NCBI RefSeq assembly: GCF_023008545.1
Contig: NZ_CP095397.1
Coordinates: 2,232,001-2,296,000 of the forward strand
Direction of reading: 5' to 3'
Length of the DNA stretch: 64,000 nt
DNA from: Natribaculum luteum
GTDB lineage: Archaea > Halobacteriota > Halobacteria > Halobacteriales > Natrialbaceae
The notes beneath the pieces are model-generated. The model saw only the letters and a list, made by a program, of their open reading frames with translations, made no database searches and was not told the DNA's origin. Shown piece by piece: positions 31,633 to 62,918 of this stretch. Position numbers and translations under genes: made by a program. Positions within the stretch are counted from its first letter, which is position 1. Each line of letters starts with the position of its first letter.

Positions 31633-32781
31633 TCAGACGACGTTTCGTTCGTCGCGAGCGGCCTCGGTCTCGAACCGATCGCTCGAGAGCCGCGAGATAT
31701 CCACCAGCGACGCCTCGCCCTCGAGTGCGAGTTCGGTGACGAGTTTCCCCGTCGCGGGAGCGTGCTGGAAGCCGTGGCCGGAGAAGCCGGCGGCCGTGAG
31801 CAGTCCCGGCACCGTCTCCTCGACGACCGGATGGTGGTCCGGCGTCACGGCGTAGAGGCCCGCCCAGCCGCGTTTGACCCGCGATTCGGGGCCGAAGTAG
31901 GTCGTCCACTCCGCGGCGGCCTCGAGGGCGTCGGCGGCCCAGTCGAAGTCGATCGAAGTCGGGTAGCCGTCCGGATCGTGGTCCGGGTCCGGACCCGGGA
32001 AGTGGCCGCCGACGAGTGCGTCGCCCTCGCGTTCCGGGCGAAAGTACGACCCGGTGTCCAGATCGATCGTCAGCGGATCGGTCTCCGGCACCGGTTCGTC
32101 GGGATCGACGACGGCGATCTGCCGGCGTTTCGGTGCGATCGGCAGCGAACAGTCGGCCATCGCGGCGACCCGTCGCGCCCACGCCCCCGCGGCGTTGACG
32201 ACCACGTCGGCCTCGAGGTGGCCGTCGTCGGTCTCGACGCCGACGACGCGGTCTCCGTCGCGGACCAGGTCTGTCACCGGCGTCTTCGTCCGAACGTCCG
32301 CACCCGCCTCGCGCGCCGCCGTCGCGTACGCCTGTAAGGCGAGGTGCGGGTCGGCGAAGCCGTCCGTCGGCGAGTAGGTCGCGCCGACGAACTGCTCGGT
32401 CTCGAGTCCTGGACAGTGCTCGACCGCTTCGGCGGGTGAGAGAAACTCGCTTGGGACGCCCCGGTCGTTCTGCATGGCGACGTTCTCGCGGAACCACTTG
32501 GCCGTCGCCTCGTCGCGGGCGAGAAAGAGGTAGCCCGTCTGCCGGAAGCCGACGTCGGTCCCGAACGTCTCCTCGAAGGACTCCCAGACGCGCATGCTCG
32601 CCAGCGAGAGGTCGACGTTGACCGGCGTCGAGAACTGCGCGCGGATGCCGCCGACGGCCCGTTCGGTGCTCCCGCCGCCGATCGATCCCTTCTCGCAGAC
32701 GGTCACCGTCGCGCCGCGGTCGGCAAGCGAGTACGCACTCGAGAGGCCGACGATCCCGCCGCCGACGACCACCACGTGCAT
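31633..32781 (-). CDS. FAD-dependent amine/amino-acid oxidoreductase (DAO family), copy 1
   Basis: This 382-residue flavoprotein starts at MHVVVVGGGIVGLSSAY, a dinucleotide-binding Rossmann motif, with the FAD-ribose glutamate in VTVCEKG. It resembles sarcosine oxidase/glycine oxidase subunits and the haloarchaeal 'DAO' group. The late segment GFSGHGFQHAPATGKLV is the family's second FAD contact. The alternative ATG at 32808 adds nine residues before the Rossmann start and is unlikely. It is followed downstream by the convergent aminotransferase. A paralogue lies directly upstream on the same strand. Confidence 0.9.
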   Translation of the reverse strand: MHVVVVGGGIVGLSSAYSLADRGATVTVCEKGSIGGGSTERAVGGIRAQFSTPVNVDLSLASMRVWESFEETFGTDVGFRQTGYLFLARDEATAKWFRENVAMQNDRGVPSEFLSPAEAVEHCPGLETEQFVGATYSPTDGFADPHLALQAYATAAREAGADVRTKTPVTDLVRDGDRVVGVETDDGHLEADVVVNAAGAWARRVAAMADCSLPIAPKRRQIAVVDPDEPVPETDPLTIDLDTGSYFRPEREGDALVGGHFPGPDPDHDPDGYPTSIDFDWAADALEAAAEWTTYFGPESRVKRGWAGLYAVTPDHHPVVEETVPGLLTAAGFSGHGFQHAPATGKLVTELALEGEASLVDISRLSSDRFETEAARDERNVV

Positions 32782-32863: not shown

Positions 32864-33961
32864 CTACCCCGAGAACCGATCCGGCGACAGTCGTGACTTG
32901 ACCGTCGGCTCGACCGTCCCCTCGAGCGTCTCCGCGAGGACGTCCGCGATCGCGGGCGCGAGCGTGATCCCAAGCCCCGTCGGGCCACAGGCGGCGTAAA
33001 AGCCCGGCGTCTCCGTCTCGCCGACGATCGGGAGTCCGTCGGGCGTCACCGTCCGCAGGCCGACCCACTCGTCGACGACCGAGTGATCCACGAGCCCTGG
33101 GACGACGTCGTCGATCGAGAGCGCTGCCGCCCTGAAGTCGTCGGGAATCCGAAGTTCCGTCGGTTCGTACCGCTGGCCCTCGACGTAGTCGGTCTGGAAC
33201 TCGCCGACGTACGCCCGCGCGTCACCGACCGGCCGGACGTAGCGTCGTGACTCGAAGAGCGTAAACGGGAGGTCGGCCGTCGACTTCCCCTCGAGTGCGA
33301 GCATCGGGCCGAGCGTGTGACACAGTGGGAGCGACACGCCCGCCCACTCGTTGAGCGTCGGTGCCCACGGTCCGGCGGCGTTGACGACCACGTCTGCCTC
33401 GAGGTGGCCGTCGTCGGTCTCGACGCCCGCAACGGCTCCGTCCGCGAGCACGACGTCGGTCACTTCGGTTTCCGTTCGAACGTCCACGCCTCGGTCGCGC
33501 GCCCGGTCGGCGAAGGCGGTGACGAGTTCGGTCGGTTCGAACGCGTGGTCGGCCGTCGTCCGCAAGCCGCCGGAGAACCCGTCGGGTTCGACGCCGAAGG
33601 CGCTCAACTCGGCTGGAGAGACGAACGACGCGTCGACGCCGTACTCCTCGAGCGTTTCGGCTGCCTCCTCGAGCGTCGCGGCGAAGCCCTCGCTCTCGGC
33701 GACGTGCAAGATGCCGAGCCGGTCCGCGCTGATCGCGTCGCGCTCGAGGAGGTCGCCGTACGTCGACCAGGCGCGGTCGCGAAGCCGCTGGCCGAACCGG
33801 GCCGGCGACGGCCGCTCCCACATGAACATTCCCGCGGAGGCGGCGGTCGTTTCGTTCCCCAGACTCGAGCGTTCACACAGCGCGACCGCGTCGTCCCCTT
33901 CCCCGAGACGTGCGGCGAGTGCCGTCCCCACGATACCACCGCCGACGATGACGATGCGCAT
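32864..33961 (-). CDS. FAD-dependent amine/amino-acid oxidoreductase (DAO family), copy 2
   Basis: This 365-residue paralogue of the adjacent gene starts MRIVIVGGGIVGTALAA. It has CERSSLGNETTAASAGMF after the FAD-ribose contact and a C-terminal FYAACGPTGLGITLAP loop that binds the cofactor. In the middle it shares VETDDGHLEADVVVNAAG with copy 1, identically at protein and almost identically at DNA level, while the rest is diverged. It lies 82 bp from copy 1 on the same strand, so the two may be co-transcribed. Substrates could be N-methyl amino acids or D-amino acids. Confidence 0.9.
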   Translation of the reverse strand: MRIVIVGGGIVGTALAARLGEGDDAVALCERSSLGNETTAASAGMFMWERPSPARFGQRLRDRAWSTYGDLLERDAISADRLGILHVAESEGFAATLEEAAETLEEYGVDASFVSPAELSAFGVEPDGFSGGLRTTADHAFEPTELVTAFADRARDRGVDVRTETEVTDVVLADGAVAGVETDDGHLEADVVVNAAGPWAPTLNEWAGVSLPLCHTLGPMLALEGKSTADLPFTLFESRRYVRPVGDARAYVGEFQTDYVEGQRYEPTELRIPDDFRAAALSIDDVVPGLVDHSVVDEWVGLRTVTPDGLPIVGETETPGFYAACGPTGLGITLAPAIADVLAETLEGTVEPTVKSRLSPDRFSG

Positions 33962-36120: not shown

Positions 36121-38322
36121 TCACTCGAGTTCGTCCTCGATCACCGACCGGTTCTCGCGAATCGCGGCGGCGTCGTACTCGAGGACGTCGTCGCCGGCGT
36201 CGATCGTGAGACGGCCGTCGTCGGTCCCTTCGCCCAGTTCGACGACCGGAGCGACGCCGTCGAACGCCTCGCGAACGGCGTCGGGGTCGGCCGTCTGCAC
36301 GAGCGCTCGAGCGGGCTGTTCGTGAAACAGCGCACCCTCGACGTCGACGTCGCCGGGCAGCGAGACCGCGAGGCCGGCGTCCTCGTCGACCATCTCTGCC
36401 AGGGAAACTGCCAGCCCGCCGTGGCTCACGTCGTGGACCGCGAGCGTCTCGTCGGCGTCGGCGACGTCGGCCAGCGTCTCGACGAACGCCGCCGGCTCGC
36501 CGGGGAGCACCGGGAACCGATCGTCGCCGTCGAACTGCGCGAGGTACTCCGAGCCACCCAGCCGGAACTCCCCATTCTCGAGTGCGAGGTCGCCGACGAG
36601 TACCAGCTTGCCCTCCGGCTTCGATTCGAGCGGCGGGGCGTCGTAGCCCGACTTCGTGCCGACCATCGCGAGCGTCGGGGTCGGCGGGATCGGACCCGCA
36701 ACCGAGTCGTTGTACAGTGAGACGTTGCCGCCGACGACGGGCACCGAGAGGTTGGCACACGTCTCCGCGAGCCCGTCGACGATCGCCGTAAATCCACCGT
36801 AGACATCCGGTTTCTCGGGGTTGCCGCCGTTCAGACAGTCGACCGCCGCGAGGGGAGTCGCCCCCTTCGCCGCGAGGTTCGTCGCGTTCTCGAGGGTGAC
36901 CGCCTTCGCTCCCTCGAAGGGTGCCGCGCTCGTCCAGTTCGGCGCAGCGCCGGAGGAGATCGCGAGACCCTGCTCTGTCTCTCGGATCGCCATCACCGCT
37001 GCGTCGTCGCCCGGCGGGACGCTCGTGCGGACGCCGACCTCGTGGTCGTACTGGCGGTAGACCCACCGCTTCGACGCGGTGTTCGGACTCGAGACGACCG
37101 CCTCGAAGGCCTCCTCGAGGTCCGTCTCGGGGAGGTCGGTCTCCGGCACTTCGGGTTCTTCGGTCGGAAGGTCGTTCATCGGCGCGCCCTCGCCGAGGAA
37201 GTGGGCGTCGACGTCGACGACCGTCTCGCCCTCGAAGGTACAGACGTAGTTGTCCGCCGTAACCTCGCCGATGACCGAACAGCCCAGGTCGAACTTCTCC
37301 GCGATCTCGCGAACCCGCTCGACGTTCTCTGACTCGACCTCGTAGCACATCCGTTCCTGGGACTCGGCCAGCAGGATCTCGAGCGCCGACATGTTCGGCT
37401 CGCGCTGGTGGACTCGCTCGAGTTCGATGTGTGCACCGAGGCCGCCTTTTGCGACCATCTCGCTCGAGGCACCGCCGAGGCCGGCCGCGCCGAGGTCGCG
37501 GGCCGACTCGACGATGTCCTCGTCGATCAGCGCCTCGTTGGCCTCGATGAGCAGCTTCTCGGCATAGGGGTCGCCGACCTGCACCGCCGGTCGGTCTTCC
37601 GTCTCGGCGTCCTCCGCCAGGTCCTCGCTCGCGAAGCTCGCGCCGCCGAGGCCGTCGCGTCCCGTCGCGTTCCCCACGAGGACGAGTTTGTTCCCCGGCT
37701 CCTGTGCTTCGGCCGTGACGAGTCGATCCTCGGTGAGCAGTCCGACGCAGGCGACGTTCACCAGCGGATTCCCCTCGTAGTCGGGGTGGCAGTCGACGCT
37801 TCCCGCCACGGTGGGCACGCCGATGCAGTTGCCGTAGTGGCTGATCCCCTCGACGACCCCCTCGAGGAGGTACTTCGAGTGCTCGCGGTCGAACGCGCCG
37901 AAGTAAAGCGAGTCCGCGAGCGCGATGGGGTAGGCCCCCATCGACAGCGTGTCCCTGACGATACCGCCGACGCCCGTCGCCGCGCCGTCGAACGGATCGA
38001 CGTAAGAGGGGTGGTTGTGGCTCTCGATCCCCATCGTGATGTAGACGTCTTCCTCTTTCTCGTCTGCGCGCCCGCTGGCGCGATCGGCGTCGGCGTCAGC
38101 CGACGACGTGTCGTCCGTCGGCAGTGCGACGACCGCCGCGTCGTCGCCCGGCCCGACGACGACCTGCTCGCCCTCGCTCTCGAACGCAGACAGCAGCGGT
38201 CTCGAGGAGCGGTACGCGCAGTGTTCGCTCCAGAGGTTCTCGAACAGCGCCGCCTCGGCCGGAGTGGGCTCTCGTCCCAGCTCTTCGACGACGAGTTCGC
38301 GGTCCGAATCGGCAAGACTCAT
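36121..38322 (-). CDS. purL: Phosphoribosylformylglycinamidine synthase II (PurL)
   Basis: This 733-residue small-type PurL converts FGAR to FGAM in purine synthesis together with PurQ and Pur[18 protein letters not shown] is the N-terminal signature, [20 protein letters not shown] carries the catalytic histidine, and two AIRS-fold halves follow. An acidic insert of about 15 residues ([20 protein letters not shown]) lies just before the catalytic strand. Length matches archaeal and Gram-positive PurL. PurQ and PurS are not in the window. The sensor gene converges on it from the left, 23 bp away. Confidence 0.96.
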
Positions 38323-38588
38323 TCATCTAGGTGGTGAAAGTCGGTCGGTAAAGGGGTTTCTATGTGCACGTTCGTGTAATGGACGATGGGGCGTGTTCTG
38401 GATAGCCGCTCTGGGAAGTCGGTGGCTGCTGGGGCCTGGTGAAGGGGTGGGTGCTCGAGTGACCTCAAAGCTATGCTCAGACGAGCGGTTTCCGTCGATC
38501 TCCGGGGGAGAGTTGGCTACTGGAGGTCGACGGAAGTGCTATGTGCTCTCCGTCCGACGTCGGGTCTGTCGCCCCGATATTGGGCATG
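38323..38588 (+). other. Non-coding region before the mini-CRISPR (possible leader remnant)
   Basis: There is no gene in these 266 bp. If the array is read in the usual haloarchaeal repeat orientation, the leader would be here, but the segment is not clearly AT-rich and I see no obvious leader motif. Confidence 0.35.
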
Positions 38589-38751
38589 GTTTCAGACGAA
38601 CGCTCGTGGGGTTGCAGCCACGGGCGATTACGACGAGCAGAACGAGTACGCGCAGTTTCAGACGAACGCTCGTGGGGTTGCAGCCACGGTGCAGCAGGTG
38701 ATCGCATCACGGAGTCGGGTTGTTTCAGACGACCTCTCGGGAGATCGAAAA
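38589..38751 (+). CRISPR. Orphan mini-CRISPR: two repeats plus a degenerate third
   Basis: A 30-nt repeat starting GTTTCAGACGAACGCTCGTG and ending GGGTTGCAGC occurs exactly at 38589-38618 and 38655-38684, separated by a 36-nt spacer. A third copy at 38722 keeps only the first 11 bases intact, after a 37-nt spacer. The repeat closely follows the haloarchaeal type I-B consensus (GTTTCAGACGAAC...TGTGGG.TTGAAGC). Both spacers begin CACGG, so the true identity is 35 nt. The would-be 5' handle is GTTGCAGC. No cas gene is in the window. Confidence 0.8.
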
Positions 38752-38892
38752 CCGGTAGCGATCCAACGTACTCAGTACGCCACGTCTACTCGTCGGCATC
38801 ATCACGGCGTTCTCGAGCGTCCTGTCGGTTAGAATTAACTGCCTGCTGATACTGCCACCTCATTTTTCCCTGTAGTTGCCGTGGAGTGGGTG

Positions 38893-40593
38893 ATGGCCGA
38901 CAACGAACGGAACATCACACGACGGCGAGTGTTACGTCTCGGTGGGAGCGCAGCACTGTTAGGACTCGCAGGGAGTCAGCGAGTGAGGGGACTCGAGTCG
39001 GTCCCTCTCCAGCAGACGTCCCAGGGGGACAGATCGAACCAGGAGGTGACGATCGTCGCCTCGGAAGGGCAAGTAGAGGCTGGACCGGACGAGAGCAGCG
39101 ACACCTGGCTGTACGACGATCAGTTTCCTGGCCCTGAACTCCGAGTGAGCGAGGGGGAGACGCTGCGCGTTTCACTCGAGAACCAGCTCCCCGAGGAGAC
39201 GACGATTCACTGGCACGGCGTTCCGGTCCCGAACCCGATGGACGGCGTTCCGAACGTCACGCAGGATCCCGTTTCGTCGGGCGAGACGTTCACCTACGAG
39301 TACGACGCGTCGCCGCCGGGCACGTACGTCTATCACAGCCACGTCGGGTTGCAACTCGACAGGGCGCTCAGTGGGCCGCTGATCGTCGAAGAGGAGTCGC
39401 CCCACGTCGAGTACGACCGGGAGTACACGCTGCTGATCGACGACTACCTCTCGGAGAGTCCGACGCTCGATTCGATCGAAGCGCCGCCTGGCGGCGGTCC
39501 CGGCGGTGGTGGCGGGCCTGGCGGAGGGCCCGGTGGTGGTGGCGGGCCTGGCGGCGGTGGTGGACCCGGCGGAGGCGGCGATGGCGGGCCTGGTGGCGGC
39601 GGTGGTCCAGGCGGTGGCCCTGGCCCCGGCGGAGGCGGCCCTGGTGGGGGTGGCGGTCCCGGTGGTGGCGGACCGGGTGGGTCTGGCGGTGGGCCCGGTG
39701 GAGGCGGTGAAGGGCCTGGTCCTGGCAACGGTCCTGGTCCTGGTGGCGGGCCCGGCGGTGGTCCTGGCGGCCCTGGCGACGTTGGCAGGCTGGGCGGTCG
39801 CGGTCCGATGCAGGTACAGCGACCCCCGTACGAGGGATTGACCGTCAACGGACGCCTCCCCTCCGATCCGCCCGTGTTCGACGTCGAAGAAGGGGAGCGG
39901 GTCCGACTACGGCTCATCAACCCCAGCGGGGCCACGACGTACCGCGTCGGCGTCGGCGGGCACTCGCTGATCGTCACGCACACCGACGGACGCCCGGTCG
40001 AACCGGTCGAGGTCGATTCCCTCGACATCAGTATGGGCGAACGCTACGACGTGATCCTCGAGGCCGATTCTCCCGGCGAGTGGGCCATCGTCGCGGCTCC
40101 CGTCGTCGGCGACGAACAGCCGGCAGAAGCCAGACTGCGGTACGATGGCGCGAGCGAAGACGGCTCCGCCGACCGACCGCAGTTCGACGGCCAGCGGTTG
40201 CAGTACGGCGACCTCGAGGCACTCGAGCCGCTCGATCTCGACGGGTCTCCGGACCGGACGTTCGACGTCACGCTCGCGGGCGGGATGATGCAAGAGCCCG
40301 GCGCGTGGACCATCGACGGGCAGGCGTACCCGGACGCCGATCCGCTGGCGATCGGCGAGGGCGAGCACGTCCGGGTGCAGATGGTAAATCGCAGTCCGGC
40401 GATCCACCCGATGCACCTCCACGGCCACTTCTTCCAGGTCGGCGACGCGGTCAAGGATACGGTCCTCGTTCCGCCCCACGGCGGACAGATCACGTTCGAC
40501 TTCCTGGCGGACAATCCCGGCGACTGGCTGTTCCACTGTCACAACGTCTATCACCTGGAACGGGGGATGGCTCGCGTCTTCGAGTACGTCTAG
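38893..40593 (+). CDS. Tat-exported multicopper oxidase with Gly/Pro-rich linker
   Basis: This 566-residue laccase-type enzyme oxidises phenols or metal ions outside the cell and reduces oxygen to water. The Tat signal is TRRRVLRLGGSAALLGLAG. Copper ligands are H106/H108 (HWHG), H148/H150 (HSH), H505/H508/H510 (HPMHLHG) and the HCHNVYHLERGM block with C549, H554 and M559 for type 1 copper. About residues 198-299 are an almost pure Gly/Pro block between cupredoxin domains 1 and 2. GTG at 38881 is an alternative start, but the ATG at 38893 gives a cleaner signal peptide. Confidence 0.93.
   Translation: MADNERNITRRRVLRLGGSAALLGLAGSQRVRGLESVPLQQTSQGDRSNQEVTIVASEGQVEAGPDESSDTWLYDDQFPGPELRVSEGETLRVSLENQLPEETTIHWHGVPVPNPMDGVPNVTQDPVSSGETFTYEYDASPPGTYVYHSHVGLQLDRALSGPLIVEEESPHVEYDREYTLLIDDYLSESPTLDSIEAPPGGGPGGGGGPGGGPGGGGGPGGGGGPGGGGDGGPGGGGGPGGGPGPGGGGPGGGGGPGGGGPGGSGGGPGGGGEGPGPGNGPGPGGGPGGGPGGPGDVGRLGGRGPMQVQRPPYEGLTVNGRLPSDPPVFDVEEGERVRLRLINPSGATTYRVGVGGHSLIVTHTDGRPVEPVEVDSLDISMGERYDVILEADSPGEWAIVAAPVVGDEQPAEARLRYDGASEDGSADRPQFDGQRLQYGDLEALEPLDLDGSPDRTFDVTLAGGMMQEPGAWTIDGQAYPDADPLAIGEGEHVRVQMVNRSPAIHPMHLHGHFFQVGDAVKDTVLVPPHGGQITFDFLADNPGDWLFHCHNVYHLERGMARVFEYV
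39485..39790 (+). repeat. Gly/Pro-coding low-complexity tract inside the multicopper oxidase
   Basis: This region is built from GGCGGN and CCNGGN codon runs that encode GGGPGG-like repeats for about 100 residues, with only a few Asp, Ser, Glu and Asn residues. Confidence 0.85.
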
Positions 40594-61213: not shown

Positions 61214-62918
61214 CGTCGTCTTCGCTGTCATCGTCTGTATCGTCTACGTCGTCTTCTTCGTCGCCTTCGCTGTCGTCGTCTGTATCGTCTACGTCGTCTT
61301 CTTCGTCGCCTTCGCTGTCGTCGTCTGTATCGTCTACGTCGTCTTCTTCGTCGCCTTCGCTGTCGTCGTCTGTATCGTCTACGTCGTCTTCTTCGTCGCC
61401 CTCGCTGTCATCGTCTTCTTCGTCGCCTTCGCTGTCCTCTTCACCGTCTTCATCTTCTGCATCGTCTTCATCCCCGTCTTCGACTACGTCTCCGTCGGAT
61501 TCCAGTTCGAGTTCGGTCTCGAGTTCGCCGCTGACGACGTCGACCTCGAGTTCGTCTTCATCGTCGGACAGTTCGAACGGGAACGACACCACACCGTCAT
61601 CGTCGGTGGTTCCGCTCCAGTCGTCAGTGGCTACCGTGGCACCCGAAACGGGCTCGCCGTCGAACGTTACGGAGACGGTCGCCGTTCCGTTCTCGACTGT
61701 CGCATCCGCCTGGAACCGCGAGTCGTCCTCGCGTTCGTCGTCGAACTCGAACTCGAGTTCGGCGTCGGCGTCGGCGTACTCGGCTTCGATGTCGGCCTCT
61801 TCACTGGGCAGGGTGACGGTGATCGTTCCGTCGTCGTTCGTTTCGCCGACCGACTGGCCGTTGACCGCGACGGTCGCGCCGGCCGCCGGCTGGCCGTCGG
61901 CGAGCACGACGAGCGTCACCTGTTCGCCTGGATTTGGCGTCCCCTCGTCGACGAGGATGGCCAGCCGTTTGTCATCGTCGTCTTCGTCGATTTCGTCGTC
62001 TTCGTTATCTTCTTCGCCGTCTTCGTCGTCTTCGTCCTCGTCGCGTGCGGCGATTTCTTCCTCGAGGGCAACGACAGTGCCCGTCTCGCCGTCGACGCTA
62101 ACCTCGGCGTCGCCGACCTCGGAGCCCGTGAGGACGAACTCGAACTCGTAGAGGCCGTCGTCGGTCTCGCTTTCGTCGAGGATCCAGGTTCCGTTCGCCG
62201 CGGAGAGGGTATCTTCGGCGATGGCGAGCGCGTCCGACTGGCTGATCACCAGCGTCCCGTTGCCATCACGCGGGCGCTCGAATTCGCGGCTTCGCTCGCC
62301 GTCTTCGCTTTCGACCTCGATCGACACGCCGTCGTCGAACTCGAGTTCGACCTCACCGCGTTCCTCGCCAGTGAAATGCCGGAGAAGTGCCTCGGAACCA
62401 GCGCCTGTCAGTCGAGTCACCGACGCTTTGCCGTCGGCCAGCGCCGTCTCGTTCACGCCGGCCGCGGCGAGTTCGAAGTCGTCGACCTCGGCGGCGCGTT
62501 CCTCGAGGCGGTCGTAACTCTCTACGACGCCCTGTGCACGGGCACTCAGCGACGCGAGTCGCTGGGCGTACGCCGACCTGTCGAGTTCGCCGTTCCGGTA
62601 TGCCTCCGTGGCGGCTTCGTACTCCGCCCGCAGCGTCGCCGAACGGTTCTCGAGAACCGCCGCGCGGTCTGCGATCGCCGCCGCGCGGTCGCTCTCGTTG
62701 CCACGTTCTATCCGTTCGTCGAACGCGGTATTCTCGAATTCGGTACGTACTTCGTCGCTCGTGGCGGTGACGACCGTCGACAGCTGTGCGCCAGCGGTGA
62801 CGTCGACGCCACCGTTGGTCTGTCGATCGGCAGTCGACACTCCAGCGACGACCGCCGGGCCGATCGCGCCCGTACAGAGCAACACGGCCATCGCGACGAG
62901 CAGGAGTTGTCGTTTCAT
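61197..62918 (-). CDS. Secreted acidic protein with PepSY-like and repeat domains
   Basis: This 573-residue protein has a signal peptide (MKRQLLLVAMAVLLCTGAIG), an N-terminal helical region, a PepSY-like segment (SQSDALAIAEDTL.. VSVDGETGTVVALEEE), two beta-domains resembling carboxypeptidase-regulatory or Big-like folds (NPGEQVTLVVLADGQPAAGA; GTATVSVTFDGEPVSG) and a C-terminal acidic repeat tail of about 80 residues (DSEGDEEDDVDDTDD repeated four times). No membrane anchor is visible at the C-terminus. It overlaps the next gene's start. Confidence 0.82.
   Translation of the reverse strand: MKRQLLLVAMAVLLCTGAIGPAVVAGVSTADRQTNGGVDVTAGAQLSTVVTATSDEVRTEFENTAFDERIERGNESDRAAAIADRAAVLENRSATLRAEYEAATEAYRNGELDRSAYAQRLASLSARAQGVVESYDRLEERAAEVDDFELAAAGVNETALADGKASVTRLTGAGSEALLRHFTGEERGEVELEFDDGVSIEVESEDGERSREFERPRDGNGTLVISQSDALAIAEDTLSAANGTWILDESETDDGLYEFEFVLTGSEVGDAEVSVDGETGTVVALEEEIAARDEDEDDEDGEEDNEDDEIDEDDDDKRLAILVDEGTPNPGEQVTLVVLADGQPAAGATVAVNGQSVGETNDDGTITVTLPSEEADIEAEYADADAELEFEFDDEREDDSRFQADATVENGTATVSVTFDGEPVSGATVATDDWSGTTDDDGVVSFPFELSDDEDELEVDVVSGELETELELESDGDVVEDGDEDDAEDEDGEEDSEGDEEDDDSEGDEEDDVDDTDDDSEGDEEDDVDDTDDDSEGDEEDDVDDTDDDSEGDEEDDVDDTDDDSEDDDESTV
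61221..61427 (-). repeat. 45-bp tandem repeat coding DSEGDEEDDVDDTDD
   Basis: Four near-identical 45-bp units (61221-61265, 61266-61310, 61311-61355, 61356-61400) plus a 27-bp partial unit encode the 15-residue acidic repeat. Confidence 0.9.

Follow-up and report, generated by a model that had tools for sequence, protein, structure and literature searches.

A structure at positions 38589–38751 of the window (the whole 64,000-nt stretch of Natribaculum luteum DNA analysed here) consists of two CRISPR-like repeats and a decayed third copy, and raises the question of what so small an array represents in a genome that encodes no effector proteins of the matching type. The locus is real but ordinary, an orphan remnant of a type I-B array that has kept its leader. 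It is very probably what is left of a lost I-B system, a short and probably inactive remnant that is structurally well preserved but would not be processed in this organism. There is ample precedent for orphan arrays and array remnants (PMC5294841, for example), and this locus illustrates cleanly how an array can outlive its cas genes: its leader and repeats have kept their order, while the genome's present system is of type I-D.

Structure of the array and its leader

The array is built from a 30-nt repeat, GTTTCAGACGAACGCTCGTGGGGTTGCAGC, present on the forward strand in two identical copies (38589–38618 and 38655–38684). Repeat 1 is followed by a spacer of 36 nt (spacer 1, 38619–38654) and repeat 2 by a spacer of 37 nt (spacer 2, 38685–38721), after which the array closes with a degenerate leader-distal repeat (38722–38751) that is exact over its first 11 nt, matches at 21 of 30 positions overall and carries A at position 27, as is usual, where repeats 1 and 2 carry C. 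Both spacers open with CACGG, which extends the identity between the two units from 30 to 35 nt (38589–38623 = 38655–38689). This arrangement had been described in the initial annotation, and its two exact repeats, its spacer lengths, the third copy intact only in the first 11 nt and the 35-nt identity are all borne out by these coordinates. Setting the decayed third copy aside, nothing else in the window resembles the repeat with fewer than 11 mismatches, and a search of the whole genome (4.6 Mb) allowing up to three mismatches, of the kind the initial annotation had proposed, returned these two copies alone. The possibility it had raised that the 35-nt unit also occurs in non-CRISPR contexts is answered by the same result, as the repeat has no other genomic copies.

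The repeats belong to the haloarchaeal type I-B family (GTTNCAGACGNAC...GAAGC), and both complete copies gave a full-length match to the Rfam model CRISPR-DR24 (RF01337) with 33.9 bits (E 2e-4), 1.1 bits below the gathering score of 35 bits for that model. Spacer lengths of 36 and 37 nt rank with the most frequent in a set of 420 spacers from related arrays, 418 of which are 32–39 nt long, with none shorter than 32 nt.

Judged by homology, the ~107 nt upstream of the first repeat (38482–38588, forward strand) are a conserved CRISPR leader, a feature absent from the initial annotation. When 40 relatives were searched with window positions 38300–38900, leader matches were found in five genomes, starting ~97–107 nt upstream of the first repeat in G014, G015, G016 and G021 and ~63 nt upstream in G013. 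Scores for local alignment of the leader alone (32–67) were higher than those of all 500 shuffles in each of the five pairs, and global identity to the five relatives was about 61–70%. Conserved blocks include TTCCGTCGATCTCC (38490–38503) and TACTGGAGGTCGACGGAA (about 38518–38535), which hold inverted copies of one another, and the leader meets the first repeat at TTGGGCATG (38580–38588). In the alignment anchored at this junction, the common blocks lie around TCGAYCYC and TAYTGRMGGTCGACGGAA, with GGCAYG immediately 5' of GTTTCAG. I-B Cas7 is encoded in all five leader-matching genomes, ~3–10 kb from the matched array in G013, G014, G015 and G021. The haloarchaeal type I-B pattern recognised earlier is backed by leader homology, repeat family and the CRISPR-DR24 match, and a chance occurrence of the array structure is excluded.

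Spacers of a haloarchaeal type I-B array would be expected to match mobile elements beside a TTC-type PAM; here their origin is less evident. Haloarchaeal spacers commonly have no known protospacer, and the comparison with virus and plasmid sequences suggested in the initial annotation was carried out without yielding a convincing protospacer for either spacer in phages, plasmids or viral contigs. A match of spacer 1 to the capsid gene of Halorubrum tailed virus 28 (E 9) extends into the repeat and fails a full-length comparison; other phage and plasmid matches of spacers 1 and 2 had E values of 0.4 or worse and were mostly in or from bacteria, while seed matches of spacer 2 in viral contigs agreed at no more than 28 of its 37 nt and stopped shortly past the seed. 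Spacer 1 reads as an acidic, GC3-rich coding sequence (TGDYDEQNEYA), a character that would fit derivation from a haloarchaeal mobile element, and this translation, searched across 392 genomes of the order, matched the array itself only.

Repeat substitutions and the shared 35-nt unit

The nearest known repeat is GTTTCAGACGAACCCTCGTGGGGTTGAAGC, with which the array repeat is identical at 28 of 30 positions and which occurs in 123 exact copies in G014 and 82 in G021. In G014, the array is directly followed by cas6-cas8b-cas7-cas5-cas3-cas4-cas1b and also closes with a decayed repeat (GTTTCAGACGAACCCTTGGGGGTATATCTT) comparable to that at 38722–38751. These I-B arrays, likewise of the CRISPR-DR24 type, share with the present locus the length of the repeat, spacers of 32–39 nt, a homologous leader and, in the case of G014, the decayed terminal repeat. 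However, they contain about 80–120 repeats rather than two and a degenerate one, they lack the substitutions C14G and A27C that distinguish the repeats described here, and I-B cas genes are absent from the present genome.

Both substitutions fall at positions with described roles. In the account of Haloarcula hispanica given in PMC9458426, nucleotides 11–15 (AACCC) and 18–22 (GTGGG) of the repeat act as anchors that fix the integration sites, and the last 8 nt form the 5' handle, which is bound by Cas5 (PMC9458426); in Haloferax volcanii, interference depends critically on this handle (PMC4390866). C14G turns anchor 1 from AACCC into AACGC and A27C sits in the 5' handle, so that the array offers a small natural test piece for the repeat positions involved in adaptation and Cas5 binding. 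The handle had already been flagged as unusual, and it is indeed so: a pattern search of about 85,000 species genomes, a collection to which N. luteum itself possibly does not belong, found no array with the handle CAGACGNACNCTNGTNGGNTTGCAGC (GCAGC). In Haloparvum sedimenti and in a Halobacteriales MAG, the AACGC anchor is found in one variant repeat of an array that is normal in other respects, and the spacers that follow these repeats have ordinary lengths of 33 and 36 nt. Because it is improbable that an identical double change arose twice independently, the simplest inference is that C14G and A27C either arose in the leader-proximal repeat or were typical of the system since lost, and that a subsequent spacer insertion duplicated them.

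The shared CACGG is rare. Related arrays yielded 411 pairs of adjacent spacers, and except for two duplicated spacers no pair has five or more leading nucleotides in common; the rate for random pairs is 0.2%, and no spacer in the related-array set starts with CACGG. An explanation that is compatible with the array being a remnant, though itself rather unlikely, is that the motif is the trace of an imprecise insertion, in which C14G in anchor 1 caused the adaptation complex to place its second cut 5 nt inside the old spacer, and a 35-nt unit (the repeat plus 5 nt of old spacer) was duplicated in place of the 30-nt repeat. The altered anchor is consistent with this, given that AACCC is described as setting integration in H. 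hispanica (PMC9458426), as is the scarcity of such sharing in related arrays. However, the insert would then be 31 nt, under the minimum of the 420 related spacers, the AACGC repeats of the two other genomes precede spacers of ordinary length, and a 5-nt coincidence occurring at 0.2% is too frequent for chance to be dismissed. If true, the mis-measured 35-nt copy would be a natural counterpart of the role demonstrated for the anchor motif in the laboratory in H. hispanica; as it stands, the common CACGG is left as chance or unexplained.

Orphan status and possible present use

Searches of the whole genome found no I-B Cas7 (PF05107), Cas8b/Csh1 (TIGR02591) or Cas5 (PF09704), for each of which Haloferax volcanii served as a control and was positive. 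The assembly comprises three contigs and is rated 99.99% complete, making a missing I-B locus unlikely but possible. The single Cas1 of the genome, Cas1d, is encoded on contig 2 in a type I-D operon, together with a Cas6-like protein, Cas10d/Csc3, Csc2, Csc1, Cas3' and Cas4. This locus (G000:C2:750–765 kb) also contains a Csa3-like regulator and two arrays, whose ~37-nt repeats, GTCGCAGTGGACAGAAAACCCAGCACGGGATTGAAAC and GTCACAGGACACCGAAAACCCAGAACGGGATTGAAAC, are different but related to one another and unrelated to that of the I-B array. The match of the Cas6-like protein is weak, below the threshold of the genome search, and no other Cas6 was seen in the genome; nor does the genome hold another array of the I-B repeat family. 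The orphan status proposed in the initial annotation thus holds, and with neither a matching array nor a matching Cas system in the genome, the locus would count as a relic in the sense used there.

The reading of the array as a remnant of an I-B system is supported by its leader, two complete repeats, two normal-length spacers and decayed terminal repeat, which stand in their usual order, and by the absence of I-B effector subunits from the genome. The leader may still drive transcription of the forward strand, but a transcript, if made, would find no cognate Cas6b to cut it and no I-B Cascade to take it up, and for that reason the array would be expected to give no immunity and gain no spacers in this strain. 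Most likely it has no present function, although its identical repeats and conserved leader, as features of the sequence, leave room for continued use. In H. hispanica, mini-CRISPRs with repeats from several haloarchaea yielded crRNAs and immunity (PMC9458426). Since the I-B repeats of one haloarchaeal species can in part substitute for those of another, the arrival of an I-B system in the cell could, in principle, conceivably make the array readable once more.

The resident type I-D system is very unlikely to use the array in trans, with its Cas6 processing the transcript and its Cascade loading the product. The complete-looking operon with its two arrays speaks for such use, and H. volcanii is known to have chromosomal arrays that lie away from its cas cluster (PMC7521656), but the type I-D repeats bear little resemblance to the array repeat, including in the 8-nt handle (ATTGAAAC versus GTTGCAGC). 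Locus C of H. volcanii is similarly an I-B array on the main chromosome that lies apart from the cas genes (PMC7521656); however, H. volcanii has I-B cas genes elsewhere in its genome, whereas the present genome has none.

It is highly improbable that the array provides a CreA-like regulatory or antitoxin guide, as in CreTA, or is another dedicated regulatory mini-CRISPR. Its isolated position and its two repeats around a guide resemble the minimal arrays presumed to be ancestral to creA (PMC8501985), and the creA of haloarchaeal CreTA modules has the same minimal two-repeat form. However, two-repeat creA is leaderless, its repeats have diverged strongly from one another, and the examples studied so far are part of I-B cas loci, with an I-B Cascade present (PMC8501985, PMC9458426), whereas here a leader is present, the two repeats are identical and the genome encodes no I-B Cascade. 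In addition, no site in the window outside the array matches beyond the first 8 nt of either spacer. A reading of the locus as an ordinary DNA repeat, dispersed or tandem, that happens to resemble CRISPR, which the presence of just two intact copies and the failure to find protospacers might suggest, is a negligible prospect against the leader homology, the Rfam match, the fitting repeat family and spacer lengths, and the restriction of the repeat to this site in the genome.

A solitary I-B-type repeat, GTTTCAGACGAACCCTTGTGAGGTTGAAGC, lies elsewhere in the genome on the minus strand (G000:C2:606230–606259), where it overlaps the end of an ORF. The sister species (G001) carries the same repeat (G001:C2:457839–457868; 30/30 identical) within flanks that are ~93% identical, and the element may represent either a remnant or an ectopic repeat, whether CreA-like or of another kind.

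Flanking genes and history of the locus

The array lies between two putative genes named by recognition, a phosphoribosylformylglycinamidine synthase (PurL)-like gene on the left (36121–38322, minus strand) and a multicopper-oxidase-like gene on the right (38893–40593, plus strand). The sister species lacks the stretch corresponding to window positions 38460–40216 (~1.76 kb), and with it both the array and most of the oxidase gene, including its front. Homology stops on the left at 38459 and restarts on the right at 40217, with an overlap of 11 nt in G001 and a CTCGAG microhomology (short CTCGAG-containing repeats) at the ends of the gap, and G001 (C1:1408–1409 kb) keeps only the 3' part of the truncated oxidase-like gene. 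Because the front of this gene is missing together with the array, the gap would represent a deletion in G001 rather than an insertion here, and the sister species therefore cannot date the array. G001 has an I-B system of its own, which is not a likely source of the array, as its repeat (GTTTCAGCAGGACCCTTGTTGGGTTGAAGC) differs and its leader is weakly similar. Since repeats 1 and 2 have not diverged and the conserved blocks of the leader are undamaged, the loss of the cas genes, or a transfer of the array, was probably not ancient.

Other repetitive features were observed in the window. The multicopper-oxidase-like protein contains a long Gly/Pro-rich insert of low complexity with GGGGPGG repeats (39480–39800), a 45-nt unit is repeated in tandem in at least four copies at 61231–61430, and an imperfect direct duplication of ~50 nt, with an exact stretch of ~32 nt, occurs at 32189–32241 and 33375–33427, 1186 nt apart.
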